Source: Tomocerus qinae (taxonomy: Eukaryota; Arthropoda; Collembola; Entomobryomorpha; Tomoceridae). From it: a stretch of DNA of 64,000 nucleotides. Numbering within the stretch: position 1 is the stretch's first letter; every line of letters begins with the position of its first letter. The notes under the pieces were generated by a model, which saw only the letters and a list, made by a program, of their open reading frames with translations, searched no databases and was not told the DNA's origin. Location of the stretch: positions 9,982,001 to 10,046,000 of the forward strand of contig CM034546.1 of assembly GCA_020055645.1 (NCBI GenBank), in the 5' to 3' direction. Shown here in pieces: positions 27,171 through 63,344 of the stretch. The translations under genes and the position numbers were made by a program.

Positions 27171-28175
27171 ATCATAAACTGCTCTCACTTGAAACTGTTA
27201 AAGCATATTTATTATTATAAATTGACGGTTTAATTTTATAACATTTTATAGATCTTGATAATGTTCTGACTTTTAATTTTATACAATTAAAAATCTATCT
27301 GAAATCTTAGCCCCACACCTTTTAGCTTAGACAACTTAGTTCTGTATATACGTGCTTGGATACGATTATTGTTAATCCATTGGGTTATCAATTAATAATT
27401 ATTTAATAATAATCTCTAACAATTTTCGAACAATTAAAGACAATATTACACAATATTATGCTTGATTTTACTTTAGAAAAGGAGAAAATGAAACTGAAAT
27501 ATATAGATCCTCTTCGGCTTGTTTGGGAAAGTTATAGTTCAAATATCTGAGCTGCAGTGTGAGGATAGAGAAGAGAGCCAGAGGCGATATGCAAATCAGG
27601 GAACAGAATGATGGGTGAACTATCTGTATTGTGACTGGATTCGACATTCTGTGACCACCTAGGGAAGACGCAACAACTTGAGAACTTGAGTTGTGTGGAA
27701 TTAACGGTAACGAGAATGAAGAGACAAAGGACAGACACATCATAACATAAGTTAAAGTATGATAGTATGAAATAAACAGTATGGAATTCTCCCTCACTAA
27801 TTAATATCGCAATCATACACATTTAAGAATCTATGTACACTAAATGCGAGTGTATGTTCCGAGTTGATTGATTTATGTGACATTTGTACTGCGAAGTGCA
27901 GCTATTCCGCGAGGTCCTAAAAATATTTGAATTTTATGTAAGCATCCACTAACACTATCAATTTAGTGCGGGCCATAAGCTGCAATCATTCTGGATTGAA
28001 TTATACGGTTCGGTATTATCTCTACTTGAAGTCTAGAATCTCTTGTGTTTATAACTCTACTACACGCATGCTTAGAATAACAGAACTACCCTTCGACATT
28101 TTTTGAAATAAAGCTACATTTCCTACCAAATAGTAAAATAATTTTTTGGATGTGTTGACCTTACAATTTGACAAA

Positions 28176-30161
28176 ATGCGCATGGAAATATATTTTATTA
28201 AACGCTTTATCCCATTTTTATTAACTGTTATTGTCATCAACATCAACAATGTACAATGTTTCCAAAGTTTGTCATTTTATAGTAATTGTGACTTTAACAT
28301 GGTCACGTATTACCAATCCGAATGGCAGACAGACTTTATACTGTCTAATCAAAATGGCCAGCCCTGGACCTTGGCAACACTCTGGTATGACATATCTCGT
28401 TTCGGCCGTCATGAAGAAAATTCACGAGATCTCTCAAGAAATTTGTGCAGTGTAAATATTCTAATGGAACCAGGCCCTACTTTGGAAAATATAGTTAAAT
28501 ACTTCGGAAAAGAAATGAACCGTCGGGATTCAAGATTTATAATGGTCATTAAAGATGAACTGAAATGGAGGGATCCAAAGTGGGAATCTTATCTCATTGA
28601 AAGTTTGGTTGCACCTCTCTTTATATTTACAATGACAGAAAGGAACAAATATTCAGTTTACATTCCAAGTCTCTACAATCCAGAAAGTAAGGGTTTATCC
28701 CTTCATCGAATCAAAGACACATTATCCGAGGAAGAATGGGAAAAGATTTGGATTACTTTAAATGGCAATCTTCATGGCATTGAGATTGCTGGTTATGATG
28801 GCCACTTTCTGTTCAATGGTCCTAGAAAAATGCCAAAATGCCGAGGAACAATCTACTCTACGATAAAAATGGATTATTATTGTAAACATTCAGTTAGAGC
28901 TGTAGAATTGATGGCTGAAAGATGGAACTTCACTGCAGTATATGGAAAACCATTTCATTTAAATAAAGAAACAAAAAATGTACTTGGAAAGATAGGGTTG
29001 TTGTATCATATAACATACACTTATAAATTCCCTTGGTACAGAAATATTTTCATTGAATTCTTTCAAGAAATGATTCCGTACTACTGTGAATCCAATCCTC
29101 GTTACCTCGACACTCCTTTGGCAGTTCTGATTCAAAATACTTTTGATGATTATTGCTGGTGTCTGCTATTCTCGCTAATCCCGATTTCATTTTATGTTTT
29201 GAGCTTCAAAATTACTTCTTTATACAAGAGAATACAAGTAATTCTCGTATCCACAATAGCCGTTCTTCTTAATCAGGATGTCTCCAATAAAGGGAGAAAC
29301 ATTTTGTACTTGGTAATTGTGTCCATGGGATTTGTAATTGCTACTCAATATGAAACGTTGATAACAAGCGAAATTATTGCACCGCCTGACAGAAAACAAT
29401 TTGTGGATTTTAAGGATCTCGTGGAAAATGGATACAAGTTGTTGCTGCACAAAGACATATGGATATTGAATTTGGACGATAGAAACACTGAGTTCTTCGA
29501 AAAATATAAAATTCTGGATACATATAATAAAAGTGTCTACAGATTCGATTGGGGAACCGATGCATCACCTGATGACAGAAAAAAAGGATACGATAGATTT
29601 ACATGGTCGTTGTTGAGCAACTTTTTATTGAAAGTATTTGCCGTAACGGAGAAAGAGGGAAGTGTATATATCGTGCCCTTAATACCATCCAGAATTTCTT
29701 CAGATGGAGTCTGCATGACAGTAAAAGAAACAGAACTTACTGTTCCTATGTCTTATTTATTCCAAGATTGCTACCGTGATATATTCTATTCATATATTCA
29801 GACCATGCAAGAAAGAGGCTTCTTAAAATATTTTAGAGAACAAAGCAATTATGGGAATTATTCGGGTGATAGAATATCCCATTCAAAACGGAAGCATGAC
29901 GAGTCTCAGATAGTGGCTATAAGTCTTTCGATGAAGATTCACACCATTTTCTTCGTTTGTGGATACTTCTTAATTGTGTCGTTCTTTACATTGTTCCTAG
30001 AAAGATTGTGGCATCATAGATTGATTTTGCAATTAAATGTTTTAAGATTTTTAGACAAACTAAAATTGGTTGTTAAAAAGAAAAGTGTAAATCGCGGATT
30101 TCCATTTGCAGCGAATGATGTCATTGAATTGCGTAAGATTTTTAACAAAAAATTAACATAA
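28176..30161 (+). CDS. Divergent ionotropic receptor (Ir/iGluR-like chemoreceptor), single exon
   Basis: 661 residues. An ATG exists 10 codons upstream, but the ATG at 28176 (acaaaATGCG) is chosen because the paralogue at 33898 starts there and a signal peptide follows (FLLTVIVININNVQC). An extracellular S1-like part is followed by M1 (about residues 327-345, LLFSLIPISFYVLSF), a pore loop (about 352-370, VILVSTIAVLLNQ), M3 with YETLITSEIIAPP (about 377-405), an S2-like part, and M4 (about 587-610, IFFVCGYFLIVSFFTLFLE). This order is that of ionotropic receptors without the amino-terminal domain. Canonical glutamate-binding residues are not evident, as usual in divergent Irs. It probably acts in sensory-neuron membranes; the ligand is unknown. 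Confidence 0.75.
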   Translation: MRMEIYFIKRFIPFLLTVIVININNVQCFQSLSFYSNCDFNMVTYYQSEWQTDFILSNQNGQPWTLATLWYDISRFGRHEENSRDLSRNLCSVNILMEPGPTLENIVKYFGKEMNRRDSRFIMVIKDELKWRDPKWESYLIESLVAPLFIFTMTERNKYSVYIPSLYNPESKGLSLHRIKDTLSEEEWEKIWITLNGNLHGIEIAGYDGHFLFNGPRKMPKCRGTIYSTIKMDYYCKHSVRAVELMAERWNFTAVYGKPFHLNKETKNVLGKIGLLYHITYTYKFPWYRNIFIEFFQEMIPYYCESNPRYLDTPLAVLIQNTFDDYCWCLLFSLIPISFYVLSFKITSLYKRIQVILVSTIAVLLNQDVSNKGRNILYLVIVSMGFVIATQYETLITSEIIAPPDRKQFVDFKDLVENGYKLLLHKDIWILNLDDRNTEFFEKYKILDTYNKSVYRFDWGTDASPDDRKKGYDRFTWSLLSNFLLKVFAVTEKEGSVYIVPLIPSRISSDGVCMTVKETELTVPMSYLFQDCYRDIFYSYIQTMQERGFLKYFREQSNYGNYSGDRISHSKRKHDESQIVAISLSMKIHTIFFVCGYFLIVSFFTLFLERLWHHRLILQLNVLRFLDKLKLVVKKKSVNRGFPFAANDVIELRKIFNKKLT

Positions 30162-33897: not shown

Positions 33898-35874
33898 ATG
33901 CGTATGAAAATATATTTTATTAAACATTTTATCCCAATTTTATTAACTGTTATTGTCATCAACAATGTTCAATGTTTCCAAAGTTTGTCATTTTATAGTA
34001 ATTGTGATTTTAACATGGTAGTCTCTTATCACTATCACCAATCCGAATGGCAGACAGACTTTATACTCTCTAATCAAAATGGCCAACCCTGGACCTTGGC
34101 AAAACTCTATTAAGACAAATCTCGTTTCGGCCGTCATGAAGAAAATCCACGAGATCTGTCAAGAAATTTGTGCAGTGTAAACATTCTAATGGATCCATAT
34201 TATAATTTTCCAAATCTGGTTGGAACTTTTGGAAAAGAAGTAAACCGTCACAATTCCAGATTTATAATTGTCATCAAAGATGAATGGAAATGGATGAATC
34301 CAAAATGGGAGTCACACCTCATTCAACATTTGATAGCTCCTCTCTTCATATTTGCAATGAGAGGAGACGACACATATTCGGTTTACAGTCCTCTTCTGTA
34401 CTACAATCCAGAAAGTGAGAGTTTATCACTTTTGGACTTGACTAGATTCTCCGTGGAAGTATGGGATGGACATTGGAAAAGGTTAAATGGAAATCTTCAT
34501 GGCATTCGGATTGGTTCTAATTATGGGCTCTTTTCGTTCGAAGATCCAAAAGAAATGCCAACATGTCGGGAAACAATCTACTCGGTGATGAAAATGGGAT
34601 ATGATTCTTGTCAAAATTCAGTTAGAGCTGTTGAATTAATGGCTGAGAGATTAAACTTCACTGCAGTATACAGAAGGCAAGCTCGATTTAAACTATTTGG
34701 AGCGATTGACCTGCTTGCAAGAAGAGCGAACACTTATTATAGTATAGAATGGGATGAAACTCTTTTCATTGAATACTTTGATGAGTTGACTCCTTACTAC
34801 TGTGAGGCCAATCCTCGTTTCTTCGACATTCCTTTGACAGTTCTAGTTCAAAATACATTTGATGGTTACTCCTGGTTGCTGATATTCTCGCTATTTCCAA
34901 TTTCATTATATATTTTGGGATTAAGAGTTTCCAACTTCTATAAGAAATTCGAGTTCATACTTGTATACACATTAGCCGTCCTTTTAAACAAACCTTTTAA
35001 CAATAAAGGGAGAAACATCTTGTACTTGGTTATTGTGTCCATGGGATTTGTAATTGCTATTCAATATGAAACGTGGATTACAAGCGAGATTATTGCACCA
35101 CCAGACAGAAAACAATTTAAGGACTTTAAAGAACTCGTCGAAAATGGATACAAGTTGATGTTGGAAAAAGACAGGAGACATAATATAGGAGGAGAGGCGA
35201 AAATCGAATTCTTTGAAAAATATAAAATTTTGGATACATATAATTCAAGTATCTACAAAATCGATTATGAAACCGATGTATCCCTCAATGACATCATGAC
35301 CAATGGATACCCAGCATTGAGATTTAAGTTTTTGACAAACTTTTCTATGAAAATATTTACCGTTGGTGAGAAAGAGCTATGTAAGTACCTAGTGCCCTTA
35401 ATACCACCCGCAATATCTTCAGATGGAGTCTGCATGACAGTAAAAGAAACAGATCTTGCTGAACCTTATTCTTATAGATTCCGAAATTGCTACCGTTACA
35501 AATTCCTTTCATATTTCCAGACCATGCAAGAAAGAGGATTCTTACTATATTTTAGGCAGCAATACGAACTTAAGTTGCATTCGGAGTTTATAATATCCTA
35601 TTCAAAACTGAAGCATCAAGAGTCTCAGACAGTGGCCATAAGTCTTTCGATGAAAATCCATATCATTTTCTTCGTTTGTGGATACTTTTTACTCGGCTGT
35701 TTCTTTACACTGTTTCTAGAAAAGTTGTGGCACTACAGATTGACTTTGCAAGTATATTCTTTAAAAATTTTAAATAAACTAAAAGTGGTTGTTAAAATAT
35801 TTAAAAGAGCTGATCGCGTTTTTCCATTTGCAGCGGATAATGTCTTTGAATTGCGTAAGATTTTTAATAAATAA
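33898..35874 (+). pseudogene. Ionotropic receptor paralogue with one in-frame stop (pseudo-pseudogene candidate)
   Basis: Collinear with the intact receptor at 28176 from start (MRMKIYF) to end (FELRKIFNK), 658 codons plus the terminal stop. The only visible lesion is TAA at 34111-34113, about codon 72, where the paralogue has a sense codon. The next 586 codons stay open, with M1, pore, M3 (YETWITSEIIAPP) and M4 all preserved and no frameshift. Starting at the next ATG (34168) would lose the signal peptide. In Drosophila, an Ir with such a premature stop is known to be expressed by readthrough. Alternatives are a very recent loss, a polymorphism or a sequencing error. Confidence 0.8.
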
Positions 35875-48050: not shown

Positions 48051-48301
48051 AAAACTGTCCAGGTTGCATATTTCTAGATGCATTAGATAGCATCTGGAAT
48101 TAATCATATTCTTACGATATTGCTTCAAAATTCTATATTAATATTGTCTTGTATACAGTAAAGCTTTTTAAACTTCTATTTTATTATGTCAATAGTTTGT
48201 AAAAGTCAATTCATTTAATAGATGCAAATTAATTACCAAATCATATTTTAAACATTTTGATGCATGCACAATTTCAAATTATGCCCTAATTGAAATAATA
48301 T

Positions 48302-48478
48302 TGTAAGATATTTAGCATATCTTGCACTTTTAGAGAATTTATTATAGTGATAAATAAATAAATTAGCTAGCTTAGACAATTATTATCTAAACTAAGTTCA
48401 ATATTTAGATGATTAAGCATCACGCCATGACACGTTCTGCTAAGTAAACAGAACATAGTTGAGGACAAATAAGATAAG
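48302..48478 (+). repeat. Outer element 5' LTR, first part (split by BEL insertion)
   Basis: 177 bp identical to 62796-62972. The LTR continues at 54854-55128 after the nested element; ATAAG is duplicated at the junction (48474-48478 and 54849-54853). Confidence 0.9.
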
Positions 48479-48887
48479 TGTTTGGGAGAATGATAACCGT
48501 TACTCTTTTATTTCATAGGATACTGTGCCTGCGCGCACTTATTTAAATATAGCGTTCTTTTCTACCATTCTGTCTACCATTTCACATTAAATTGATTACG
48601 ATACTTGCTCCAGTGTGGACGCATGCTTTTTGTGCTCTTCACAGATCAATTCATTTTAGTGTAGTTATCTTTTAATTCTGATTAATTGTAACTACTTGTG
48701 TCACATTATCTTAGGTTAGTAAATAAAGTAGTTTAGTTTATTTACACCTGTGTGACTACATCATTTTTTGGTTAGTTTCATATTTCTGAAACCAGTACAC
48801 AACGCATAGCACCAGACACAAGCTAGAGATAGATATAAGTTCAACCCACAGTCCACTGCATTTCAATTGGGGAACCTCATCCCCACA
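48479..48887 (+). repeat. BEL 5' LTR
   Basis: Begins tgtttgggagaatgataacc and ends ccccaca. Contains an AT-rich TATA-like ttatttaaatatag (about 48539) and an aataaa (about 48721) usable for 3' end formation in the downstream LTR copy. Confidence 0.9.
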
Positions 48888-49158
48888 TTTGGTCCTTCGA
48901 TAGCCGAATCACTGTTGTGATTTTTGAACCGTTTTTGGACTTGTCATCGGGTCTCATTGTGTCACCTCTCGTGGACTTTCTTCAGTCAATTTCAAGTGGA
49001 CTGGTCGTTATCAAGCAACGTCATATTCATTGTGGTCCGTCGGTCATCGTTGGATATCGTCGATCACTTTCAGCCCAGGTTGCGTTCATCGTTGGATAGC
49101 GTCAATCAACATTTGTGGATTCACTACTATTTAGTAGTTTGCAATCAGAAGCTCCATT

Positions 49159-52100
49159 ATGGACAAACTCATCAACAAGAGAAGAGGATTGGCGGGTAAA
49201 ATAGACGCCCTTCATACTCTAGTCAGCAATCATGCTACTGCGCCTTTGGACGACAAGGACGTGAAACTGTATCTGGAATTGGTAATTGACCATCGAAAGA
49301 AAAATGAAGATTTATTTGATGAAATTCTATCTCTGTGCAAAACTGATGATCAATTCAGTTCAAATCAAATAATCTATGATCAAGATAATTCAAAATTATT
49401 AGCAATCAAGAAGAGCCTTCTCTTAATTCAGGATACCTTTCCAACTGCCTCATCAAGTAGTGCAAGTGCTACAACAGCAAAACCTACAGACGTTCGTCTA
49501 CCCAAACTGGAGATACCAAAATTCGATGGTAAGCTACAAGACTGGTCTACTTTTCATGACCTATTTACTACTTCAGTGCATGACAATGCCTCCTTGAGTG
49601 GGGCTCAGAAGCTTCAACATTTGAAGTCACTTCTAGTTGGAGAGCCATCAGTGCTTCTCAATGCAGTCAACATTACAGACCGTAATTATAACGAAGCCTG
49701 GAAGATATTAACCAGTCGTTATGAAAACAAGCGAGAAATTGTGAAAAGTCACTTGGATCGACTATTCAGTCAACAGAACCTTCAGGTGGAGGATCCAATT
49801 GCTCTACGCAAAATGGCAGATACCACTGGAGAATGCGTTCGAGCTCTTAAAATCATGAAGATTTCTACTGAACAAATTGGTGAGTTAATTATCATTCATT
49901 TGATTTCCCGGAAGTTGGATGGAGAGTCCAGACTTGAGTGGGAGAAGAAACTCGGTACTGATGAAATACCTACACTTAAAAAATTCGAAGAGTTCCTCGA
50001 CAATCACGTTCGAGTCACATTAGCAGCCGGTCTTAGTAAGTCAAAACCTACATCCAGTGTTAAGTCAGATTTTCGTAATAATCACAAAAAACCTATATCG
50101 GTTCATGTTGCAAATTCAAAACCCTGTTGTGTGTTATGTGAGAAAGAACATTACATAAATACGTGTGATGCATTCCTAAAGATGTCTGTGGACGAAAGAG
50201 AGCAAACAGCTCAAAGACTCAATTTATGTTTTAATTGTTTGGTCTATGGGCACACAATTTATAATTGCAAGTCCAAGAAGCATTGCAGGGATTGCACTGT
50301 TCGTCACAATACTTTACTTCATCGACAGAAAGTAAAGGAAACCAAGTCAGAACCGAAACCAGAAAAGCCTGTGGAGCCCAAGCCCCCATCAACGGTTACG
50401 TCAACCATGCACTTATCCAGTGAAGTCGGCAATTCAACAAATGTGTTGTTATCTACAGCTCTCGTCAAAGTTCAAGATTCAAATGGTGAATTTCAGTATT
50501 GTCGTGCCTTATTGGATACTGGATCGGAATCTACTATTATTACAAACAACTGTGTGCAGAAGCTCGGTCTTAAGCAAAAGCGAGCGAACGTCTCCATTTC
50601 TGGAATTGGAGCAGCTGACATCGGGACATCAACCTCGGTCGTCAACTTTCACGTAAAGTCCTGTGTAAATAAATTATTTACATTCAATGTTGACTCTTTA
50701 GTTATGTCTAAAGTGACTGGCCCGCAGCCAAAATCTCAAGTGAATTATACCAAGTGGTCCCATATTGATGGTCTACCATTGGCAGATCCCATGTTCTTTC
50801 GGCCATCTAAAATTGACATTTTATTTGGTAACGATGTTTTCCCAGATTTATTAATAGGCAGGAAAATTCAAGGCCCTGAGGGTGCTCCGACTGCAGTGCA
50901 AACAGAACTCGGTTGGGTATTAATGGGAAAATACAACAATTCGGGCCCAAAACACGTGTCTATTTATCATGCTAATTGTGATATTAGTTCAACTTTGCAG
51001 CAATTCTGGGAGTTGGAGGAAATACCGAAGTCATCTCCACTTTCACCAGAAGAAATTCAATGTGAGCAGCATTTTGAAGCCACTCACAGCCGTGACCCTA
51101 CAGGAAGGTACACAGTCAAATTACCCTTCAAGTCTAAAGCAAAACCACTTGGAGAATCAAGAAACAGGGCAGTCCAACGCCTTCTACAAATCGAACGAAG
51201 ATTTTCTTCTCAGCCTGAACGTCAAGATGAATATAACAAAATACTACAAGAGTATCTCGATCTTGGCCACATGGAACCTGTTCCAGCAACGGAATTAGAA
51301 AAGGCAAGTTATTATATGCCTCATCACTCAGTGTATAAACCCTCTAGTTCTACAACTAAAGTGCGTGTAGTGTTCGACGCATCAGCCGCCACTACTTCCG
51401 GTTCATCTCTCAACGAGACATTAATGGTTGGTCCTAAGTTACAGCAGGACCTAATCTCTATTTTGATGCGTTTTCGAGCAAATCGTATCGCCTTTACTGC
51501 AGATATTGCCAAAATGTATCGGCAATTTCTAGTGCATCGTGATGATGTTGACTTTCAACGCATAGTGTGGAGAAAGTCAAAGGACGAACCCATTCAAGAC
51601 TACAGAATGTTAACTGTTACTTTTGGAACTTCTTCAGCCCCTTATCAAGCGGTGAAATGCGTCCAGCAGTTAGCAAAAGATGAACAATTTCTCTTTCCTG
51701 AAGCATCAGTCTTGCTATTACGTGACCTTTACATAGATGACTTACTTTCAGGTGCGGATAGCGAAGAGAAAGCAATCGAAGTAAAGGAGCAGTTACTTCA
51801 ACTCACTCAACGTGGTCAACTGGAATTAAGGAAGTGGTCTTCTAATTCCTCATCATTTTTGGAGTCTCTCCCCGCCGAAATGAGAGAGACTAATTTACCT
51901 CTTCGAATTGATGTCGACGAGTCAGTCAAAGCTTTGGGTCTTCAGTGGAATCCTGCCACAGACTGTTTCAACTTTACAGTGAAAGTTCCAGTTATTAATG
52001 GAACAGTGACTAAACGGATCGTTGCATCTGAAAATGCAAAAATATTCGACCCTTTGGGACTTTTGTCTCCTGTGACGATCAACGCAAAATTGCTATTACA

Positions 52101-54315
52101 ACAATTGTGGAAAATCAGTTTGGATTGGGACAGCTCTCTCCCTGATGACATTTTGAACTCATGGATGGACTACCTACGTGAGTTACCGTGCATAAAGGAT
52201 ATTAAAATTCCTCGTTATGTTTCTGATGTAAACAGTAATAGTGCCCACAAGAAGTACTACTTACATGGTTTTTGTGATGCTTCCGAGGAAGCATACTCAG
52301 CTGCTGTTTATCTACGGACAGTGACCGATGGCAAAGTCATCACAGTGAAAATCGTTGCTGCTAAAACTAAGGTGGCCCCCTTGAAGCAGCAAACCCTTCC
52401 TCGATTGGAATTGTGTGGTGCAGTGCTCGTTTCCAGACTCATGTTGTGTGTGAAGGAGTCTCTGGAGTTGAAAATCGAAGATGCCTTTGGCTGGACCGAC
52501 TCAACCATAGTCTTAGCTTGGCTCGCGTCCCCACCCCAACGGTGGAAAACTTTTGTTGCCAACCGCATCTCCGAGATTCAAGGAGTCATCCCTTTCGAGA
52601 AGTGGAACCATGTGAAGAGTGAGGACAATCCTGCGGACTGTGCCTCTAGAGGAATTTCTCCTACTCTACTCGCAGACCATCCTTTATGGTGGAATGGTCC
52701 AACCTGGCTTATGGCAAAGGAAGTGCCCAACATAAAAGACTCAGTCCATTCAGATAATCTCGATGAAGAATTAGCTGTGGAGGAGCGAAAGCAGAAAGTT
52801 GTCATCTGTCTTGGTGAGGTTGACAAATCATCTCTCTTGTACAAATATTCATCTCTGCCCAAACTCCTTCGCATGACGGCGTATTGTTTCCGATTTTTGA
52901 ATAATACGCGTAAGAAACCAAATCAAATAAAATCGAAGTTCGTGACAATAGACGAACAGAACGCAGCCTTGACTTACTGGATCAAGATTGTACAAGAGGA
53001 AGAATTTCACGATGAAATCCATCTTTTGCAGAAAAAGAAGACGTTACCCTCAAAAAGCAAAATTATTTCTTTGGCTCCTTTTCTGGATAACGAGGGTGTT
53101 CTCAGAGTGGGCGGTCGTCTGAAGAACTCACCATGTGCTACAGACAAGAAGTTTCCTGTCTTGTTGCCTAAAAAACATACCTTGACAAATTTAATTGTGT
53201 CTCATTTCCATTTAGTGAACCTCCATGCAGGACCACAATTATTATTGGCATCCCTGCGGGGAAAATTCTGGATCGTTGCTGGTAACGAAGTTGTTCGATC
53301 GTTTGTGCGGAAATGTGTGATATGTTGCCGTTATCGAGCACAGGTCTCTCAACATCAAATGGGAGATCTTCCAGAAGCAAGAGTTACACCTGGACGTCCA
53401 TTCTTGAGATGCGGCGTCGATTATGCTGGACCTTTCTCACTTTCAACAACCCGAGGACGAGGACAGAAAACATCTAAGGGTTATATCTGTCTCTTCGTCT
53501 GTTTTGCTACAAGAGCAATTCACCTGGAGCTGGTGATGGATTTGACTACGGAAGCCTTCATCGCAGCTTTGCAACGTTTCGTTTCAAAACGTGGAAAGTG
53601 TACAGACATTTTTAGTGACTGCGGCACAAATTTTGTCGGCGCAGACAAGGAACTCAAGACTTTACTACAACAAGTTCAAGCTCAAGATCATGACACAAAA
53701 ATTGCAAACTGTGCTACAGAACTCGGCATTAGGTGGCACTTCAATCCACCTGGTGCACCTCATTTTACTGGAATCTGCGAAGCTGGTGTGAAATCAGCCA
53801 AATTCCATTTGAAGCGTGTAATGGGGAATTCTACTTTTACTGTGGAGGAGATGGTGACTACTTTGGCGCAAATCGAGGCCTGTCTCAACTCACGTCCAAT
53901 TACACCGATGTCAAGTGATCCTAGTGACTTGACAGCGCTTACTCCGGGACATTTCCTAATAGGAGAACCATTGACTGCCATCCCGCAACCTGACATCACT
54001 CATCTGCAAGAAAATCGGCTCTCTCGATGGCAGAAAACTCAGCAAGTCCTGCAACATTTTTGGAAGCGGTGGTCATCAGAGTATTTACCGCAACTACAAC
54101 AACGTACTAAGTGGAGCTCATCTCATCAAAATCTCAAGGAAGGTGACTTAGTACTAATCAAAGACGAGGATCTCCCACCATTAAAGTGGAAAATGGGACG
54201 TGTAATTAGTGTCTATCCAGGAAAAGACAATGTTGTGCGTGTTGTGACATTGAAGACTTCTTCTGGAAACATTCAACGTCCTGTCGTGAAATTGTGTTTG
54301 TTACCCATAGAATAA
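49159..54315 (+). CDS. BEL/Pao gag-pol polyprotein
   Basis: 1718 residues in one frame. Order: DUF1759-type gag (about 110-200, PKLEIPKFDGKLQDWSTF), CCHC knuckle (about 355, CFNCLVYGHTIYNC) and a second Cys cluster, A17-type aspartic protease (about 450, ALLDTGSEST), reverse transcriptase with YIDDLL (about 857), RNase H-like region (about 1036, GFCDASEEAYSAAVY), H2C2 integrase zinc site (about 1348, HFHLVNLHAG ... CVICC), DDE integrase core (GVDYAGPF about 1418, SDCGTNFVGA about 1487, CEAGVKSA about 1540), and a C-terminal DUF5641 domain (LSRWQKTQQVLQHFWKRW). It provides capsid, processing, cDNA synthesis and integration. No stop or frameshift is seen. It starts 271 bp after the LTR. Confidence 0.95.
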   Translation: MDKLINKRRGLAGKIDALHTLVSNHATAPLDDKDVKLYLELVIDHRKKNEDLFDEILSLCKTDDQFSSNQIIYDQDNSKLLAIKKSLLLIQDTFPTASSSSASATTAKPTDVRLPKLEIPKFDGKLQDWSTFHDLFTTSVHDNASLSGAQKLQHLKSLLVGEPSVLLNAVNITDRNYNEAWKILTSRYENKREIVKSHLDRLFSQQNLQVEDPIALRKMADTTGECVRALKIMKISTEQIGELIIIHLISRKLDGESRLEWEKKLGTDEIPTLKKFEEFLDNHVRVTLAAGLSKSKPTSSVKSDFRNNHKKPISVHVANSKPCCVLCEKEHYINTCDAFLKMSVDEREQTAQRLNLCFNCLVYGHTIYNCKSKKHCRDCTVRHNTLLHRQKVKETKSEPKPEKPVEPKPPSTVTSTMHLSSEVGNSTNVLLSTALVKVQDSNGEFQYCRALLDTGSESTIITNNCVQKLGLKQKRANVSISGIGAADIGTSTSVVNFHVKSCVNKLFTFNVDSLVMSKVTGPQPKSQVNYTKWSHIDGLPLADPMFFRPSKIDILFGNDVFPDLLIGRKIQGPEGAPTAVQTELGWVLMGKYNNSGPKHVSIYHANCDISSTLQQFWELEEIPKSSPLSPEEIQCEQHFEATHSRDPTGRYTVKLPFKSKAKPLGESRNRAVQRLLQIERRFSSQPERQDEYNKILQEYLDLGHMEPVPATELEKASYYMPHHSVYKPSSSTTKVRVVFDASAATTSGSSLNETLMVGPKLQQDLISILMRFRANRIAFTADIAKMYRQFLVHRDDVDFQRIVWRKSKDEPIQDYRMLTVTFGTSSAPYQAVKCVQQLAKDEQFLFPEASVLLLRDLYIDDLLSGADSEEKAIEVKEQLLQLTQRGQLELRKWSSNSSSFLESLPAEMRETNLPLRIDVDESVKALGLQWNPATDCFNFTVKVPVINGTVTKRIVASENAKIFDPLGLLSPVTINAKLLLQQLWKISLDWDSSLPDDILNSWMDYLRELPCIKDIKIPRYVSDVNSNSAHKKYYLHGFCDASEEAYSAAVYLRTVTDGKVITVKIVAAKTKVAPLKQQTLPRLELCGAVLVSRLMLCVKESLELKIEDAFGWTDSTIVLAWLASPPQRWKTFVANRISEIQGVIPFEKWNHVKSEDNPADCASRGISPTLLADHPLWWNGPTWLMAKEVPNIKDSVHSDNLDEELAVEERKQKVVICLGEVDKSSLLYKYSSLPKLLRMTAYCFRFLNNTRKKPNQIKSKFVTIDEQNAALTYWIKIVQEEEFHDEIHLLQKKKTLPSKSKIISLAPFLDNEGVLRVGGRLKNSPCATDKKFPVLLPKKHTLTNLIVSHFHLVNLHAGPQLLLASLRGKFWIVAGNEVVRSFVRKCVICCRYRAQVSQHQMGDLPEARVTPGRPFLRCGVDYAGPFSLSTTRGRGQKTSKGYICLFVCFATRAIHLELVMDLTTEAFIAALQRFVSKRGKCTDIFSDCGTNFVGADKELKTLLQQVQAQDHDTKIANCATELGIRWHFNPPGAPHFTGICEAGVKSAKFHLKRVMGNSTFTVEEMVTTLAQIEACLNSRPITPMSSDPSDLTALTPGHFLIGEPLTAIPQPDITHLQENRLSRWQKTQQVLQHFWKRWSSEYLPQLQQRTKWSSSHQNLKEGDLVLIKDEDLPPLKWKMGRVISVYPGKDNVVRVVTLKTSSGNIQRPVVKLCLLPIE

Positions 54316-54440
54316 GATATTTCAATCTTTTATAGTTTTTAATTATTTTATTCTTTTATGTTTTAATGATTATTTTATCATTCATTATTATATTACTATT
54401 AATTAATTAGTTGGATTATATCAATCCAAAGTGGGCGGAA

Positions 54441-54848
54441 TGTTTGGGAGAATGATAACCGTTCCTCTTTTATTTCATAGGATACTGTGCCTGCGCGCAC
54501 TTATTTAAATATAGCGTTCTTTTCTACCATTCTGTCTACCATTTCACATTAAATTGATTACGATACTTGCTCCAGTGTGGACGCATGCTTTTTGTGCTCT
54601 TCACAGATCAATTCATTTTAGTGTAGTTATCTTTTAATTCTGATTAATTGTAACTACTTGTGTCACATTATCTTAGGTTAGTAAATAAAGTAGTTTAGTT
54701 TATTTACACCTGTGTGACTACATCATTTTTTGGTTAGTTTCATATTTCTGAAACCAGTACACAACGCATAGCACCAGACACAAGCTAGAGATAGATATAA
54801 GTTCAATCCACAGTCCACTGCATTCAATTGGGGAACCTCATCCCCACA
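54441..54848 (+). repeat. BEL 3' LTR
   Basis: 408 bp, near-identical to 48479-48887; preceded by the purine tract and followed by the duplicated ATAAG. Confidence 0.95.
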
Positions 54849-54853
54849 ATAAG

Positions 54854-55128
54854 TGACAATAATTTTGCAGTAGTTAGCAAAACACTATAGCAAGGTAAAA
54901 CACTATAGTAAAGTGCTATAATTATAAGACCTTAAGTTTAGTATATAAGGAGAGTCAGCCTGTTGACTCTTTAGCTAGTTCTGGATTGGCAATGTAACAG
55001 TAACATTCTTTCTTGAATAAACTGTAAAGTACCAATATGAATTAGTCTCACACACTCCGACAATCTCTCATCATTTCTCAGAGCAGAAACTCTCCATCTT
55101 CACATCCAATTATACACATGCCGCCACA
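54854..55128 (+). repeat. Outer element 5' LTR, second part, with promoter
   Basis: 275 bp matching 62973-63247 except one base (54855). A TATA box tatataag lies at 54942-54949, followed by a short inverted repeat agagtca...tgactct (54951-54970) at the probable start site. The signal aataaa is at 55016-55021. Confidence 0.85.
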
Positions 55129-55319
55129 TGGTGTCCTATCGTGAGGGGAATTGAATTAATTGAATTGGAAAACGTGAAAACGGAGAAAAATGAACTGCAC
55201 AGAGAATTTGAGACATTACGGAGACAAAGAAAAATGGAGAGAGAGTAAGCAACCGCCTACAAGCCTCCCGCTACACAGCTTCTGCACTCACACACACATT
55301 ACGACAACCGCACAGAAAA

Positions 55320-55570
55320 AACTCCCAGAACAAGTTATAAAGAGCATTCCACAAAAAGAAACACTCTCAATCACAAAAATTCAAGGAGGATTCCTTAAAA
55401 GGAAAAACTCCCAGAATTGTGAGAAGAAGAGCATTCTTATTAAGAAAAACTTTCCACCACAAAAACCAAGGAGGATTCCTTAAAAGAAAAAACTCCCAGA
55501 ATTGTGAGAAGAAGAGCATTCTTAAAAAGAGGAAAAACTCGCAAACTTTAGTTCAAGGAGGATTCCGAAA
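55320..55570. repeat. ~86-bp tandem repeat in outer element leader
   Basis: caaggaggattcc recurs at 55382, 55467 and 55554. Each copy carries aaaaactcccagaattgtga and gaagagcattctta. It is non-coding and may be part of the packaging leader. Confidence 0.75.
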
Positions 55571-56589
55571 AATCACACTACATATCTAAAATTTGGAGAA
55601 ACACTTTAGAGTTTTACACTCAGCAGAGCATTCTCTACAGAGGATAACCTCGACAGAACTTTGCCGAAAGGTTGATGGTTCTCCGCGGATAATGACCGTG
55701 GTTACAACACAAACACGCACAATTTTTGTTTTTGAAAAACCCAAGTCACTTAAAAAATTTTTTTTTCCAGTCATTTAAATTTTCAAGTCATTTCATTCAT
55801 TTAATTTTTTCAAGTCAAGTCATTTATTTTGATTTCTTCAAGACATTTCATTTATTTCGATTACCCCAAATTCAATTGTCTTATTCAAATACCTACGTTA
55901 AATTTTTTTTCTGACCAATAGTAAAAGTAAAATTTTTAGAAGGAGATATCCTCAGATCCCGCATTCAAAACTCCAACTAAAAATAGACTACTATGTAAAG
56001 TATATGAAAGAGCCTTATCAATGAGTCATTTAAATATGTAGATACAAAGTACGAATGAATAGAGAGCCCATTAAGATTAGAAACACATTAAAGCACATCT
56101 GCTACTTATCAGCTTGAAAATGCAAACGCGGAGCAATAGCCAGATATATATGTCAGCTTATTAACTAACACACTCTCTCATACATTTTCCTTTGATTCCA
56201 CTCACCATCTATAACTAGCTCCACATGTGTAACATCAGGGCGCCCATAAAAACATGTATACGGATCCAAGTTCGAAACGTAGAAAAAGTTAGCTTTCAAT
56301 CAAGACAATACTTATTAGTTTTTCACTCGTTATTATGTCAGACAATAACAAATGAGATTGGCCACGTACGTACAATAGAGAATAATTGAGAATACAAAAC
56401 ACTTTAATTAAGTTAGCTACTTAATTCACGAGTGTACATTTCAGATAACCCTCACCTTTAGAAGAGAAATTGGAATTCTAGACCCAATTTAGCATCTTCT
56501 ATTTATGGAAATCAATAGTCATATCCACTAGCGTGGATCCTCACATTTGAGGTCATTAGGCCGGCAGCGATAAAACAGTACTGTTCGAA

Positions 56590-57500
56590 CAAAAGCCAGG
56601 GTTCGGGAGACCATAGTAGACCCACAACCACATCCACTCCCATTGGTAATAAAAATTCGGGAGACTATAGTAGACCCACAACCACATCCACTACCATTGG
56701 TAATAAAAATTCGGGAGACCATAGTAGACCCTAAACCACATCCACTCCCATTAGTAATAAAGGTTCGGGAGACCAGAGTAAACCTCAGAGACACATTCAC
56801 TCCCATTGTTATTGAAAATTCAGGAGACCATAGTTACCCCCAAAACCGCATCCACTCCCATTATTAAGAGAGAATTCGGGAGCCCATAGTTACCTCGCAA
56901 TCACTCCCATCGTCAATAGAAATTCAATAGATCATAACTACCCCAGAGAACGTATCCACTCCCACTGTCAATAGAAGTCGGGATATCATAACTACTACAA
57001 AAAAATACATCAACTCCCATTACGAATTCAAATATAGTAGTTCGGGAAACCTTAGATACCACAGAAACACATTCACTTCCATTATTAAGCAAAAATAGTT
57101 TGGAAGCATATAGTCACTACAACAATCCACCCCCATTGTTAATTAAAACTTGGAAAGAACATAGTTAACACTACTGGTTAACACTACAAAACCTACTCTC
57201 ATTGTTAAACAAACAAAATTAATTCAGGAGTTACCATAGCAACATATCCAGACTTATTGTTAAGAAATCATAAATAGTCCAGGAAACCAGAGAGCAATCA
57301 CGAAAATACATCTACTCCTAGTATAATAGTTAGAGAAACTACAGTAATAATCGAGACACATCTACTCCTATTGTTTAGCGAAAATAATAGTATGGCATAT
57401 CATAGTAACCATAGAGACGCATTCACTCCTTTCATCAAAAAAATAAATAGAAGTTCGAGAAACTGGAGTTATTATAGACATACGTCCACCCTCATAGTTT
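56590..57500. repeat. 54-bp tandem repeat, decaying downstream
   Basis: ttcgggagaccatag-type anchors lie at 56602, 56656, 56710, 56764, 56819 and 56875 (spacing 54, 54, 54, 55, 56), then weaker copies to about 57500. The first copies keep an open frame on both strands, which I attribute to the 18-codon period. Confidence 0.85.
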
Positions 57501-58469
57501 ACAACTACCTCAATAGATGTAATCTACCGACAGACACGTATCAATTTCCAGAGGATGTTCACAATTTTTTTCCCATTGATAGAACTTACGTAAACTTATC
57601 CACATTCATAAACAAAGACGACAGAAACCTGAGTAATCACAATAGAAAATAGTTACAGAATCAGATGCATCCATCCGTAGTCAAAAAAGAAGTCCACAAT
57701 CTTTTACGAAAGAAATTCAAGAAACACTTCCATTCCAATTGTTAGACATGAACAAAAATCAGACAAATAGAAGCCAAAAATGACTACTACCCAGAGACGA
57801 CTAATATATGGAAGCAGATTAAAAATGGATCATCTATTGTTCTATCCAGTAGCCAGTAACACTACGAGGCCCTAACCAACCATAAACTAAGAAAAGAAGC
57901 CATAGACGATCACATCCACCCAAAAGATGTTCAAACAAAAATCCATAGATGACCGTCCTTAGATGTTCAGCATAAATCATGCCAAATTCCATCCAAACAC
58001 CATTGAAAATTTACGACCCGATGACAACTGCAAATTTAGCTCCACAACAACTGACAGAAGATAATTATCAGTATCATTAAACTTAGAGATGTCCAACAAG
58101 AATCATTTGTACCACAAACCCTTTTCAAATCATTGTCCACCATTTCGACTTTAGAGAAGACAACCATAAAATGCCATAGATCACCTATAAGACAACATAG
58201 TTGGCACTACAATCGGATTTACAACCTAGCTACGCAGACGACATAACTGACATCCATCAATCAGATTTACAACCCAGCTACAATGCGACGAACTAAATTT
58301 CTACTGGTTGAAACAATACCACCAACAATCCAGATAAATACGACAGACTCCTATATAAACCAAACCCAAAATCCACAAAACTCCAGTCAAAAAGTATCAA
58401 TCAAGCTACACCAGTCTCTCTTCTACAGCATTTATCTCTTTCCACACTTAAACATAACAAAGAAACGTC
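57501..58469. other. Outer element internal sequence, no gene supported
   Basis: A-rich on plus, C over G, with many stops. Similar composition continues through the element and sets it apart from the flanking DNA and from the nested BEL. Confidence 0.5.
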
Positions 58470-60323
58470 ATGAACATCACACCGAAACTAACCCATCTCC
58501 AATGTCAATCTCAACCAGATTCGGAACTTGCCATTTTAGAATGGTCAATTAAAAATTTTTGGACAATAGTAGGTCAAGACCAACGACAATTTCGCCCATA
58601 CATGTCAGACAAGAAATTCCTCATCGGTAAACAAATCGGACACGACTCTATTTGGTCCATAATCTTAGACGCCAACAATGATCTGATCAAGATTTGGATT
58701 TACCTAGAAGATATAATCAAAGATCTACAACAAATCACACCGTATTTAGAGGTAGAGTTACTCTACCCCGATACACGATTACCCTACGTATCCAAAAAAA
58801 TACCCATTCCACTAGAAATAGCACCAGGACCCTCTGCCATTAACAATCGTTATGGATTCCCAGATCTATTTAGACTATCATCACTATGGCAAGACAGACA
58901 ATTCTACACTCCAAATGACGAACTCCTTATAAAAGTCAAAATTCACATAATCGGAGATACTTATCACTTAGATAACATTTCAAGAGTACAGACACCAAAA
59001 ACAGGAACTTGTCTATGCACTACCGATCAAGACTGTAAAAATAGATCTTATCATCAAAATTACATGATAGAATTATTGGAGAAGAAATTATTCACCGATC
59101 TAACCATAAAAACAACTAACAATGGAGAAATCAAACTATTTTCAGTACATAAAAACATTTTGGCAGCAGCCAGCGACGTCTTCCTTGCCCAACTTACCCT
59201 GCCCCTACAAGAAAAACAAATAAACCAAATCGATTTATCCGAAAACTCAGCGGAAGCAGTACAAGCTCTTCTCATTTTCATCTACTCAGGATGAGAAAAA
59301 TTCCCACAGGACATGCAGTACTTACTCGAAATAGCAACATTGGCTGAAAAATAATTCATTAAAACACTTAAGACAACAATATGGAATCACATCATAGATA
59401 AACTTACGAACGATAATATAGACACAGTACGACACATGGCCACTGTATTATGCCCTCCACCACAAGTTAACAGAATCCTTCAACATTTTAATACAACCTC
59501 AGGACCTTCACGCGTTCTAACTACAATACCCAGACACCCCTTTTTTCCTGAAGATTGTGACGACATGATTAACGGCGAAATGGTACCCCGGCCAAGAACG
59601 TTGAACGATCCAAAATTCATACAACGATGACCATTCGCCGTCTTCATGCAAGCTTTTAAGAGAAACAATGACAAAGAAAAACGTCACATTGACCAACACC
59701 CGACCACCGTAATAATTCAAGATTATACAAATAAAAGCTCCAATACAAAAGGACCACACCCATGTTCTACAACATCAATGAGAAAAGAACGTCCGTCTAC
59801 AAATGACCCACAACCATGTTCTTCAGCGTCATTAAAGAAACCAGCTTCAAAAACTACTACAAGCCCACAAAGAAAGTTATACAAGTGCCCTATTTGCCCA
59901 TTTTCAACCATTAGTCAACACTACTACAACCAACATCGAAACTCCCACTACAGATGCCAAAAAAGCCCACAATTCCTAACTAATAATGAAGAAAATTTAA
60001 AAATACACATGAGCATGCATATTGGTGACAAAAGTATCCAATGTCCAGTATGTAAAGCTATCTGCTCTTCTAAAGAAACTTTCAGAACGCATCGTAATCG
60101 CCACCACTCCGGAAAGAAAGACACCCTATTTACCACGAGAAGAACCATTACAGAAAATCATACCCAGAACGATACAGAAGACGATACAGAACAAGACAAG
60201 GAGAGTGACACAAATATTCACATAGCAACACCAAATATCACCAGAGATAAAAATAACTTTACAAGTGACCCTTCTGACACTTCCAGAGAAGTTACACCAC
60301 CAGACAGTCATAGGTCAAACTAA
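58470..60323 (+). pseudogene. MATH-BTB-C2H2 reading frame with three in-frame stops
   Basis: One frame spans 618 codons. MATH domain (about codons 20-160: LEWSIKNFW, RYGFPDLFRLSSLW, LIKVKIHIIGD). BTB/POZ domain (about 200 onward: LFTDLTIKTT, FSVHKNILAAASDVFLAQL, NSAEAVQALLIFIYSG). Then stops TGA at 59292-59294, TAA at 59352-59354 and TGA at 59628-59630, none with a frameshift. BTB-like and linker sequence continues between them. After the last stop come two C2H2-like fingers (KCPICPFSTISQHYYNQHRN; QCPVCKAICSSKETFRTHRN) and an acidic tail ending at 60323. MATH-BTB proteins of the SPOP type bring substrates to Cullin-3 ubiquitin ligases. This looks like a captured host-type gene. It may be dead, or expressed in pieces or by readthrough. 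Confidence 0.75.
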
Positions 60324-60486
60324 TAAAGACAACACGGCTCATTACACCAACCAACACAAACATACGTAACCCCAAAAATCTATTTCTTCACTTCAGAAAA
60401 TATTCCCATCCTCTCAGTCCTTCATCTCCACTCTTCGCGATCAATCCTTCTTCAACAAGTACCCTACATTTCTAAATTCTACAAAC

Positions 60487-61095
60487 ATGGCCTACGTCAT
60501 CCAATTCGATAATGACCATTTCATCAAAATTTCCATCGAGCAACAAACAGACCCTCCAAACCCAAGTGTTTTAATTGACTTACCTCTTCAACTTCTACCA
60601 GAAAATGCTAACAGAGCACCGTGTCATCAAATCCTAATAACACCTGGACAAATTGAAATCACTCCAACTTCTTCCACATCAGTGCCACCCATCCTGCGAA
60701 AAGTTCAATTCATGGAGGAATCACCTGCCACTTTAACTGTACACACCAGTGCACCGGAAAATACAGCTACTCCGTCCATCGTCTCACCCGACAATGTTTT
60801 CCACATCACTACAACCACCAACAACACTACAACGGAAACAACTACAACATCGTCTACTTGGACTCGATATCCACCTACTAGACCGGTCAGAGAAGTTGTT
60901 TTTCGACCACCTCCTGTTTGGGTACACAACCATCCTTTTGCTATTCAACCACCTGCCGGACCAACTTTCGTTTCGTCTAAAGGACCAACATGCTTCACGT
61001 GTCATTCCGACACTCATCTGTTCCATGAATGTCCACATACCAAATGTTTTAAATGCAAACGATTTGGCCACGCCCATCGACAGTGCCTTAACTAA
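60487..61095 (+). CDS. Zinc-knuckle (Gag nucleocapsid-like) ORF of outer element
   Basis: 202 residues, intact. The N-terminal ~60 residues (MAYVIQFDNDHFIKISIE) have no recognised fold. A Thr/Pro-rich middle follows. The C-terminus has two CX2CX4HX4C knuckles in a row (CFTCHSDTHLFHEC and CFKCKRFGHAHRQC), as in retroviral-type nucleocapsid. It probably binds RNA and could serve packaging of the element's transcript. Placing a nucleocapsid-like gene at the 3' end, with no pol, is unusual. It could also be a cellular CCHC protein picked up with the BTB gene. Confidence 0.65.
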   Translation: MAYVIQFDNDHFIKISIEQQTDPPNPSVLIDLPLQLLPENANRAPCHQILITPGQIEITPTSSTSVPPILRKVQFMEESPATLTVHTSAPENTATPSIVSPDNVFHITTTTNNTTTETTTTSSTWTRYPPTRPVREVVFRPPPVWVHNHPFAIQPPAGPTFVSSKGPTCFTCHSDTHLFHECPHTKCFKCKRFGHAHRQCLN

Positions 61096-61189
61096 TTGCC
61101 TGTGACCACAATACAGTTTTGATTAACAGTGCATTGTCCACCATTCATCCAATAATAATACTTTCAGTGCACCCAGTTTTGTGCTCCTC

Positions 61190-61280
61190 TACTTTCTCCA
61201 CTCCACTCAGTTCAACTCTACTCTACTCTACTCTGCTCTACTCCACTCAACTCAGTTCTGCTCAACTCACCCTACTCTTC
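61190..61280. repeat. ctact microsatellite-like tract
   Basis: actctactctactctgctctactcc and related imperfect pentamers. Confidence 0.85.
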
Positions 61281-62795
61281 TCCTCTACACAGGATGTCTG
61301 CACGACTTCAATCAGCGCTAAGTCTCATACTTTCACTTTTAGTAAAAATCTAAGATTTAACTTAAGGAGGGGGGAACTCTAGGAAGGAATCTAGGAATTT
61401 AGAACAATTAGGAATTCTATAGGAAATTTAGGAATTCTAAGACATGTAAGAATTCTAGGCAATTTTAGGAAATCTAGACTTAAAAATCTAATCTAGATAC
61501 TTAGAGCAATTTAAGCAAAGAAATCTTACAATGTATGTAAGATTATAGTTACACTAACGACTACGAGTATGTCTATACTAAATATGTACTCTTTCAATTA
61601 ATGACAAATTTATGTAAAGAGGCTCGATGACAATAACTACCTCTTAAAACTAAAACAATTTAGATGCCCACTCAGATTGCTTATTAGTTATCGTATACTC
61701 AGATTACTTACTAGTTATCGTATTGAAATAATTCGTGACAAGTCAAATCAACTAATCTTCAGTAATAAGAAATTATCGGTATTTCTAGTAGTTACATGTA
61801 GTTACAATGTATCCAATAGTCTAAATCTATCATGCATAGAAATGTAATTAAGTACACTTTGCAATGATTAGTACTAGTTGAGATAGTGTAACACAATTGT
61901 TTTGATTACTAATTAACATGTTCACTGTAATTCATTCTATTATCTTATTGTAACACAATTGTTTTCATTGCTTATCAGCATGTTCACTGTGACTCCACTT
62001 ACAAAGTCATAAAATAAGCATAATAACGAAAATGCACCCAGCAGACTAAAAACAAACAAATTCAGTCATTTCCAATTAAAAAATTTTTTAGGAAAGCACT
62101 TTTCACTTTTAAAAATTAGTATGCACATCAATGTATGATCAATGTTTACTATTTTTTATCTAACTAATAATAGTCGCTAAAAATTCTACAAATTCTAATG
62201 TTGTAACTTTGTTGGATATCTTCCTCGCTTGAATTGTCAGGAGCAACATTTAGATACTTATTAGATACCTATTAAAATAATACGGAAATCAAGCCACTCT
62301 ACTAGCATAATCAAATTCTAATGAACAATTTTTCCGTAACATTTTGCCGTAACAATTTTTCCGTAACAATTTCCGTATCAATTTGCGTTAAATTTTCCGA
62401 TACAATTTCCGAGTCATATGAGTTACATGCTTACTACCTACTTATAGCATACGCAATAATCTTTTAAAGTGCCTTAAAATGTTCTAGCCTATTAGAATAT
62501 GAGTTTAAACCTAATTTAATGTTATTAGAAATTACTTATTGTTAAGTATAAAAATTCAAAAATCTAGTAAGTGTAATTTTCTTTTAACCCTGTTATGTCA
62601 TTTATTTTTAACTATTTGTTAGGGTAATTAACAAATTATTAAATAAATGTAAACAAAAAGTACATTCACACTATTACACGCACCTACACACATGAGTAAA
62701 ACCAATCCAGAGGTTAATAACTTTTACGTAGACTTTAACTAGACAGAGATAATAAATTCTATTTTTCGTCGTAGACGAAATCTTGAGGAAGGGGA
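61281..62795. other. Outer element 3' non-coding region
   Basis: No gene is seen. Short direct repeats occur: cacaattgtttt...catgttcactgt at about 61892 and 61952, and ttttccgtaacaat units at about 62330-62410. It ends in the purine tract before the 3' LTR. Confidence 0.5.
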
Positions 62796-63247
62796 TGTAA
62801 GATATTTAGCATATCTTGCACTTTTAGAGAATTTATTATAGTGATAAATAAATAAATTAGCTAGCTTAGACAATTATTATCTAAACTAAGTTCAATATTT
62901 AGATGATTAAGCATCACGCCATGACACGTTCTGCTAAGTAAACAGAACATAGTTGAGGACAAATAAGATAAGTAACAATAATTTTGCAGTAGTTAGCAAA
63001 ACACTATAGCAAGGTAAAACACTATAGTAAAGTGCTATAATTATAAGACCTTAAGTTTAGTATATAAGGAGAGTCAGCCTGTTGACTCTTTAGCTAGTTC
63101 TGGATTGGCAATGTAACAGTAACATTCTTTCTTGAATAAACTGTAAAGTACCAATATGAATTAGTCTCACACACTCCGACAATCTCTCATCATTTCTCAG
63201 AGCAGAAACTCTCCATCTTCACATCCAATTATACACATGCCGCCACA
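62796..63247 (+). repeat. Outer element 3' LTR (complete)
   Basis: 452 bp starting tgtaagatatttagcatatc and ending ccgccaca; followed by the TSD atat. Being unsplit, it shows the pre-BEL form of the 5' LTR. Confidence 0.95.
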
Positions 63248-63344
63248 ATATCTAATATCATAATTATCAACATTGTATTCAAAAATCAAATAAAATTGTA
63301 ATATTACGTACCTACGGTTACTAAAGTTTATAAAAATTAAACTT

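Follow-up and report, generated by a model that had tools for sequence, protein, structure and literature searches.

The 64,000-nucleotide stretch of the Tomocerus qinae genome analysed here (the window; C1:9982001-10046000 in a 334-Mb assembly of 115 contigs) contains at 48302-63247 an element bounded by long terminal repeats (LTRs), termed element A. The data indicate, with a probability of roughly 0.6, that element A is one copy of a low-copy LTR family that lacks pol, depends on a helper for its movement and carries two genes kept by selection, one encoding a MATH-BTB-C2H2 protein and the other a zinc-knuckle protein. The landmarks of the element are given below as window coordinates, strand and description.

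48298-48301, unstranded: left target site duplication (TSD), ATAT
48302-48478, plus: 5′ LTR, part one (bases 1-177 of 452)
48479-54848, plus: distinct BEL/Pao element interrupting the 5′ LTR, not part of element A
54854-55128, plus: 5′ LTR, part two (bases 178-452)
55129-55146, plus: primer-binding-site-like stretch beginning TGGTG and abutting the 5′ LTR, recognized from sequence only
55467-56600, plus: conserved noncoding leader block, a candidate cis-acting region
56602-57163, plus: degenerate 54-bp tandem repeats further downstream in the leader
58470-60323, plus: MATH-BTB-linker-C2H2 frame, closed in A by stops at 59292, 59352 and 59628
58506-58967, plus: MATH-like domain
59070-59342, plus: BTB/POZ domain (Pfam)
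59880-59948 and 60039-60107, plus: C2H2 fingers, below Pfam cut-offs
60487-61095, plus: zinc-knuckle open reading frame (ORF), 202 aa from the ATG at 60487, with two CCHC knuckles at about 60988-61089
62312-62795, plus: conserved noncoding 3′ block adjoining the polypurine tract
62785-62795, plus: polypurine tract GAGGAAGGGGA, the same in copies A, B and C
62796-63247, plus: 3′ LTR
63248-63251, unstranded: right TSD, ATAT

The ends of element A are those that the original prediction had described for an LTR retrotransposon, with the 4-bp TSD ATAT, LTRs of 452 bp with TG...CA termini, a primer-site-like stretch and a polypurine tract all present. Self-comparison of the window and alignment reproduced the claimed difference of 1/452 between the two LTRs, and the 7.7-kb interior was found at 55129-62795. 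The TGGTG-starting stretch abuts the LTR in copy C (described below) as well as in A. The 3′ LTR contains TATAA motifs at 63036, 63042 and 63063 and AATAAA at 63135, as well as at 62847 and 62851. Rfam and tRNA scans across the window gave no matches. A second and longer purine tract (about AGGAGGGGGGAA) lies at 61366-61377, 1.4 kb ahead of the 3′ LTR, and the plus strand over 55250-61100 is mostly A/C-rich and G-poor, in coding and noncoding parts alike. The 5′ LTR is split by a BEL/Pao element flanked by a 5-bp TSD, ATAAG (48474-48478 and 54849-54853), whose own LTRs (48479-48887 and 54441-54848) are 99.3% identical over 409 bp. Its pol frame at 49138-54315 is open (1725 aa) and matches the Pfam models Peptidase_A17, DUF1759, an integrase zinc domain and DUF5641; named BEL elements are among the best 120 of its 6168 protein matches. 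A pol is thus present between 48302 and 63247, although it belongs to another element.

Element A is not a single-copy chimera, an outcome that had been named as fatal to the prediction, as the assembly also holds a complete copy, a copy without its 5′ end, a decayed relative and solo LTRs. A search with the LTR gave 12 matches, three of them A's own LTR pieces and nine elsewhere, and a search with the interior recovered copies B and C. The complete copy, C (C3:31573777-31581778, minus strand), spans 8002 bp and has a TSD of ATAT; its LTRs differ at 15/431 aligned bases, making it older than A, and its MATH region has undergone rearrangement. The 5′ end is missing from copy B (C7:235640 to about 243814, minus strand), which has BEL-like sequence upstream and is damaged in its later fingers and CCHC region. 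Relative D on C3 is decayed, hosts the insertion of copy C, and retains 71-74% amino acid identity in MATH-BTB and 48-55% in the CCHC protein. Relative E, at about 35% amino acid identity and some 5 kb beyond D, shows the order MATH-BTB-C2H2 followed by a partial CCHC start. The region C3:31572048-31588665 is therefore a cluster of three relatives, with C within D and E about 5 kb off. It is doubtful whether the LTR fragment at C3:31583510-31583690 belongs to D, because no primer-site-like stretch follows it. Solo LTRs lie at C1:7610366 (97%, TSD ATAC), C1:52681247 (92%, TSD ATAT) and C1:57323352 (81%), and a 66% LTR match at C1:18244923 is uncertain. Copies A, B and C are one lineage and not repeated captures, since LTR, gene pair and 3′ end are common to them, as is the greater part of the leader. 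A partner with the same LTR was sought, and scoring of all 12 candidates turned up no additional element whose LTR is similar. Two other origins were considered and rejected: chance LTR-like repeats by the TSD and the further copies, and a host gene with flanking solo LTRs by the ends and leader common to the copies.

A six-frame Pfam scan of 55129-62795 found no reverse transcriptase (RT), protease or integrase in the interior, as predicted. Translated with X at stops and scanned at an expectation value (E) of 1 or less, the six frames matched BTB (3.2e-13), zf-H2C2_2 (0.025) and DUF7003 (0.018, below cut-off) and nothing else, with no match to RT, protease, RNase H or integrase in any of them. 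Profile scans of three sense frames each revealed no pol in copies B and C or in the E region; a single protease-like match lies upstream of copy B within the BEL-like sequence. With tblastn, none of 120 BEL pol proteins matched the interiors of A, B and C, and all 120 matched the nested BEL element. The fear that other copies carry a normal pol was thus not borne out for B and C, either in their sense frames or by this search, and a pol concealed in decayed frames was considered and set aside on the X-read frames together with tblastn.

In place of pol, the interior holds two coding regions. The three main interior frames are 278, 241 and 230 aa long; when the interior was dinucleotide-shuffled 500 times, the longest frame was 220 aa and none attained 230 aa, and 500 shuffles restricted to the A/C-rich block 58200-61100 gave one with a frame of 230 aa or more (longest 233) and none with 278. 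The BTB domain is well supported, at a Pfam E of 7e-12 in the single window frame and 3.6e-14 in copy B. For the SPOP-like MATH-BTB module that had been proposed, the BTB half is therefore firm, and the MATH half is tentative, with a Pfam E of only 0.08 in the window protein and structural likeness at low confidence: a three-dimensional comparison (VIA second look) ranks SPOP/TRAF MATH domains at the top for a model with a predicted local distance difference test score (pLDDT) of 34.6. Foldseek alone found no match to the MATH-BTB model at E<=0.001, its first entry being TRAF6 at E 0.2, and phmmer with the MATH part alone against PDB retrieved no MATH protein. Homologous frames elsewhere in the genome match MATH_2 at E 1.3e-4 to 2.2e-3, below the Pfam cut-off. 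Both C2H2 fingers of A show the spacing C-x2-C-x12-H-x3-H by eye. The proposed in-frame joining of MATH-BTB to C2H2 holds for copy B, in which MATH, BTB, linker and first finger (E 0.029, below cut-off) are open as one 547-aa frame with BTB and C2H2 together, as in ZBTB-like proteins, and fails for the window copy, where the three stops interrupt the frame. Between the 5′ LTR and this frame lie 32 ATGs, so that translating it requires splicing, internal initiation or some other means; a simple splice scan found one donor-like site (54892, within the LTR) and, for the pattern used, no acceptor-like site.

The second coding region agrees with the nucleocapsid-like ORF of the original prediction, its two CCHC knuckles matching retroviral nucleocapsid at E 0.003. 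Neither this ORF nor the interior frames match a Pfam gag model, and the structure model of the CCHC protein is uninformative (pLDDT 33.8). The protein has five matches in the genome, all within copies A to D. Protein databases gave no relative of the MATH-BTB and CCHC frames at the thresholds used, in a search insensitive to remote relatives, and viral contigs gave no match for the LTR end, MATH-BTB or CCHC.

Both gene regions evolved under purifying selection. For the long frame, the ratio of nonsynonymous to synonymous divergence (dN/dS, Nei-Gojobori) between A and B is 0.120 (0.08-0.18) over all 509 codons, with 0.058 for MATH, 0.077 for the BTB-linker part and 0.265 (0.12-0.54) for the first C2H2 part; the linker gives 0.081 for A/C and 0.187 for B/C. 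Towards the distant relative, A/D ratios in MATH-BTB are 0.079 and 0.118 at synonymous divergences (dS) of 1.93 and 1.45, and B/D gives 0.110 for one part, the other part being saturated and yielding no value. Substitutions in the long frame by codon position are 22/19/69 against B, 37/29/83 against C and 62/34/174 against D, a third-position excess with P values of 5e-10, 4e-8 and 3e-27, respectively. The CCHC gene has dN/dS values of 0.386 (0.24-0.63) for A/C, 0.206 for A/D and 0.207 for C/D, and its codon positions are unequal against C (26/10/34, P 0.0017) and D (30/21/51, P 0.0009). Noncoding parts show no codon periodicity in 9/9 comparisons (lowest P 0.087). With synonymous sites near saturation towards D, the gene lineage is old. 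The claim of recent transposition accordingly stands for copy A, whose LTRs differ at a single base, and does not extend to the gene set itself.

Conservation of noncoding sequence among A, B and C is highest in the leader block and the 3′ block. The leader block differs by 3.6-4.9% substitutions among the three copies, and the 3′ block by 3.7-5.3% among them and 15.8% from D; the other parts compared diverge by 8-17%. Among A, B and C, both blocks also vary less than synonymous sites do. Such conservation fits either cis-acting regions or ends swapped between copies through template switching.

The three stops in the frame of A probably predate its insertion. With the branch length set to half of the LTR divergence, 0.10 stops are expected since insertion against the three seen (P 1.5e-4), and the same test with the upper limit for one LTR difference gives P 0.018; copy A therefore probably moved with its frame already closed. 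Help in trans is then the simplest reading, and in the last move of A the functions of the MATH-BTB-C2H2 protein, if needed, would have been supplied in this way. More generally, the LTR promoter would yield an RNA for which another LTR element supplies the proteins of packaging, reverse transcription and integration, and the conserved leader and 3′ blocks may be the cis signals for packaging and copying by that helper. The MATH-BTB-C2H2 protein would be retained as beneficial to the element. By analogy to SPOP, its BTB domain could bring the CUL3 ubiquitin ligase to a target picked by the MATH domain, and its C2H2 fingers might tether it to nucleic acid, for instance in removing a host silencing factor or acting on the chromatin of the element. 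The zinc-knuckle protein may bind element RNA and aid its entry into the particle of the helper.

Homologous MATH-BTB frames occur in other elements of the genome. The MATH-BTB query found 24 places in the assembly, seven in A to E and 17 others at 23-38% identity. Seven of these 17 remote loci were fetched, and in five of them (F, G, L031, H, which is L032, and L033) the MATH-BTB frame lies antisense to retroviral-type frames with an env-like frame alongside. LTR pairs were demonstrated for two of the five. G (L027+L028; C1:67976419-67991853) has 638-bp LTRs that are 99.7% identical and a TSD of ATAG, and H (L034/L032/L035; C1:67041333 to about 67056266) has identical 491-bp LTRs and a TSD of CAAA. 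Each is about 15 kb long, with MATH-BTB-RING-C2H2 antisense and protease-like and env-like frames in sense; in G, these frames match aspartyl protease at E 2.7e-4 and Fusion_gly (env-like) at E 6.8e-4, both below cut-offs. F has the same env-like frame as G, H is 70% identical to G across 1.3 kb of it, and L031 and L033 match H at 92-94% identity. When the LTRs of A, G and H were compared, nothing beyond chance-level matches of 14-21 bp emerged. No RT of its own was found in G in 4.6 kb (six frames) and two large frames that were profile-scanned, or in H in the sense frames of three profile-scanned segments, and none of the 120 BEL pol proteins matched the interior of either by tblastn. G also carries a later insertion, absent from F, that looks like a long interspersed nuclear element (LINE) with an RT-like frame, and H is flanked on either side by a piece of what looks like a host receptor-like frame. 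In MATH-BTB, dN/dS is 0.09-0.18 among H, L031 and L033; the frames of G and F differ by a single nonsynonymous change, and G/H gives 0.31 at a dS of 2.05. Of the remaining two fetched loci, L029 (C1:10511500-10521499; match at C1:10516090) encodes a 581-aa MATH-BTB-C2H2 protein next to a weakly ATPase-like frame (E 0.014) and a BIR-RING frame, a context that we tentatively take to be a Polinton-like element. At L030 (C1:67768500-67778499), a MATH-BTB-RING-C2H2 frame of 709 aa has an F-box frame nearby, and no LTR pair was seen within 10 kb. As a tentative extension that is rather doubtful at present, MATH-BTB(-RING)-C2H2 might be a module common to a guild of helper-dependent, pol-less LTR elements of at least three unlike LTR types, aiding helper use or escape from host silencing.

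Among known systems, Burro/GYPSM1, the giant Gypsy-like elements of planarians, is the closest precedent of element A. These LTR elements carry MATH_TRAF_C, in the polyprotein or in an upstream accessory ORF, as well as CCHC knuckles and tandem repeats, but unlike A they are longer than 30 kb and possess the usual Gag, protease, RT, RNase H and integrase together with an env-like region (PMC6431247). The main text of that paper uses neither 'BTB' nor 'zinc finger', and no Gag-protease-RT-RNase H-integrase polyprotein of the Burro type was found in six frames of A or the sense frames of B and C. The original view that no described family has such content therefore needs qualification: a MATH-bearing LTR element is in print, and the full combination of MATH-BTB-C2H2 and a zinc-knuckle ORF without pol was not found in searches of open-licence papers by title and opening of the abstract. 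Large retrotransposon derivatives (LARDs) and other non-autonomous LTR elements are portrayed in the same text as retaining LTRs while other DNA replaces pol, and as being moved in trans, which resembles A; their trapped DNA is not necessarily coding, whereas the family of A has two genes under purifying selection (PMC6431247). In A, gag-pol is absent, and movement in trans is what we infer. TR-GAG elements are defined by an intact Gag that has both a capsid and a nucleocapsid domain. A resembles them as a putative non-autonomous LTR element with a gag-type nucleic-acid-binding protein, but shows two knuckles on a 202-aa protein in which no capsid-like domain was found. SPOP and other MATH-BTB adaptors of CUL3 have MATH followed by BTB, as predicted for the frame of A, and provide the closest solved structures; A adds C2H2 fingers and is known from its sequence and predicted structure.

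Three further systems share single traits with A. The MDG1 group (412, mdg1) has small conserved element proteins ahead of gag under purifying selection, but gag-pol is present and the proteins differ, sORF1 being a possible helix-turn-helix protein and sORF2 a membrane protein (PMC11952523). In bdelloid LTR elements one type of accessory gene, ORF3, occurs in unrelated element classes, although it encodes a GDSL esterase or DEDDy exonuclease beside gag and pol (PMC5408684). TciGAG1 of a sunflower relative reportedly combines a MATH domain with a GAG-related domain, but is treated as a domesticated GAG gene and not as an LTR element with MATH-BTB-C2H2 (PMC9784723).

These precedents lend some plausibility to a deletion derivative, in which an autonomous Gypsy-like element had both genes as accessory ORFs and lost gag-pol before the copies spread. 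The sORF1 and sORF2 of the MDG1 group are accessory ORFs ahead of gag with low dN/dS (PMC11952523), Burro has MATH inside a pol-bearing element (PMC6431247), and the 1.7-kb noncoding 3′ part of A (61096-62795) could be a former pol site. However, neither A nor the sense reading of B and C showed a pol remnant, no other element with a similar LTR was among the scored candidates, and the older relatives share the gene order, E without pol in three sense frames and D without pol by tblastn with BEL pol, which leaves this history rather unlikely. Passive cargo, a LARD that trapped a host gene pair useless to the element, agrees with the LARD description in overall size and movement in trans (PMC6431247), and with the closed long frame of A. 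Purifying selection among the copies and towards D speaks against it, as does the failure to find the CCHC gene outside the family in the assembly, and it is improbable. Least credible is a host MATH-BTB-C2H2 gene family captured several times by LTR elements, with the selection signal accrued in host genes: the 17 remote matches, some of them long open frames, the lack of an LTR pair around L030 and the rat MATH-BTB genes that reportedly spread as retrogenes (PMC2724483) would suit it, but the single lineage of A, B and C and the env-like frames adjoining five of the seven fetched remote loci make it very improbable.

Several observations weigh against the preferred reading of a helper-dependent family with selected genes. 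The selection signal of the CCHC gene is weaker than that of the long frame, and over 193 aligned bases of A/B it shows no third-position excess (10/4/6, P 0.25). A/B LTR divergence, at 0.03, is far below the synonymous divergence of 0.23, so that ends and core may differ in history through recombination; template switching of ends would account for this disparity. At least one gene is damaged in every one of the five elements A to E, and none was seen with both intact. The sensitivity of the pol searches was also limited, since RVT_1 scored even the open RT of the nested BEL element at only E 0.0037, below cut-off, no integrase core model matched that element either, and tblastn with BEL pol senses BEL-like pol only and missed the LINE-type RT-like frame in G. 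Relative D gave no pol by tblastn with the BEL frame and was covered by that search and not by a profile scan. The search took in one assembly with only the best candidates scored, and no helper element was identified in it. The proposed biochemical roles are drawn by analogy, and CUL3 binding is predicted.

Elsewhere in the window, two long intronless frames at 28137-30161 and 34114-35874 have what we take to be a resemblance to divergent ionotropic receptors, and a frame at 12244-12948 presumably resembles a Harbinger-type nuclease.

Non-autonomous LTR elements are usually viewed as passive wrecks. If the reading preferred here is true, a pol-less family with selected genes would be an independent player with a regulatory protein of its own, and a CUL3-adaptor-like protein with nucleic-acid-binding fingers could, by analogy, act on host silencing. 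The homologues in other LTR types of the genome make the target of this protein and the pol that moves these elements testable questions.

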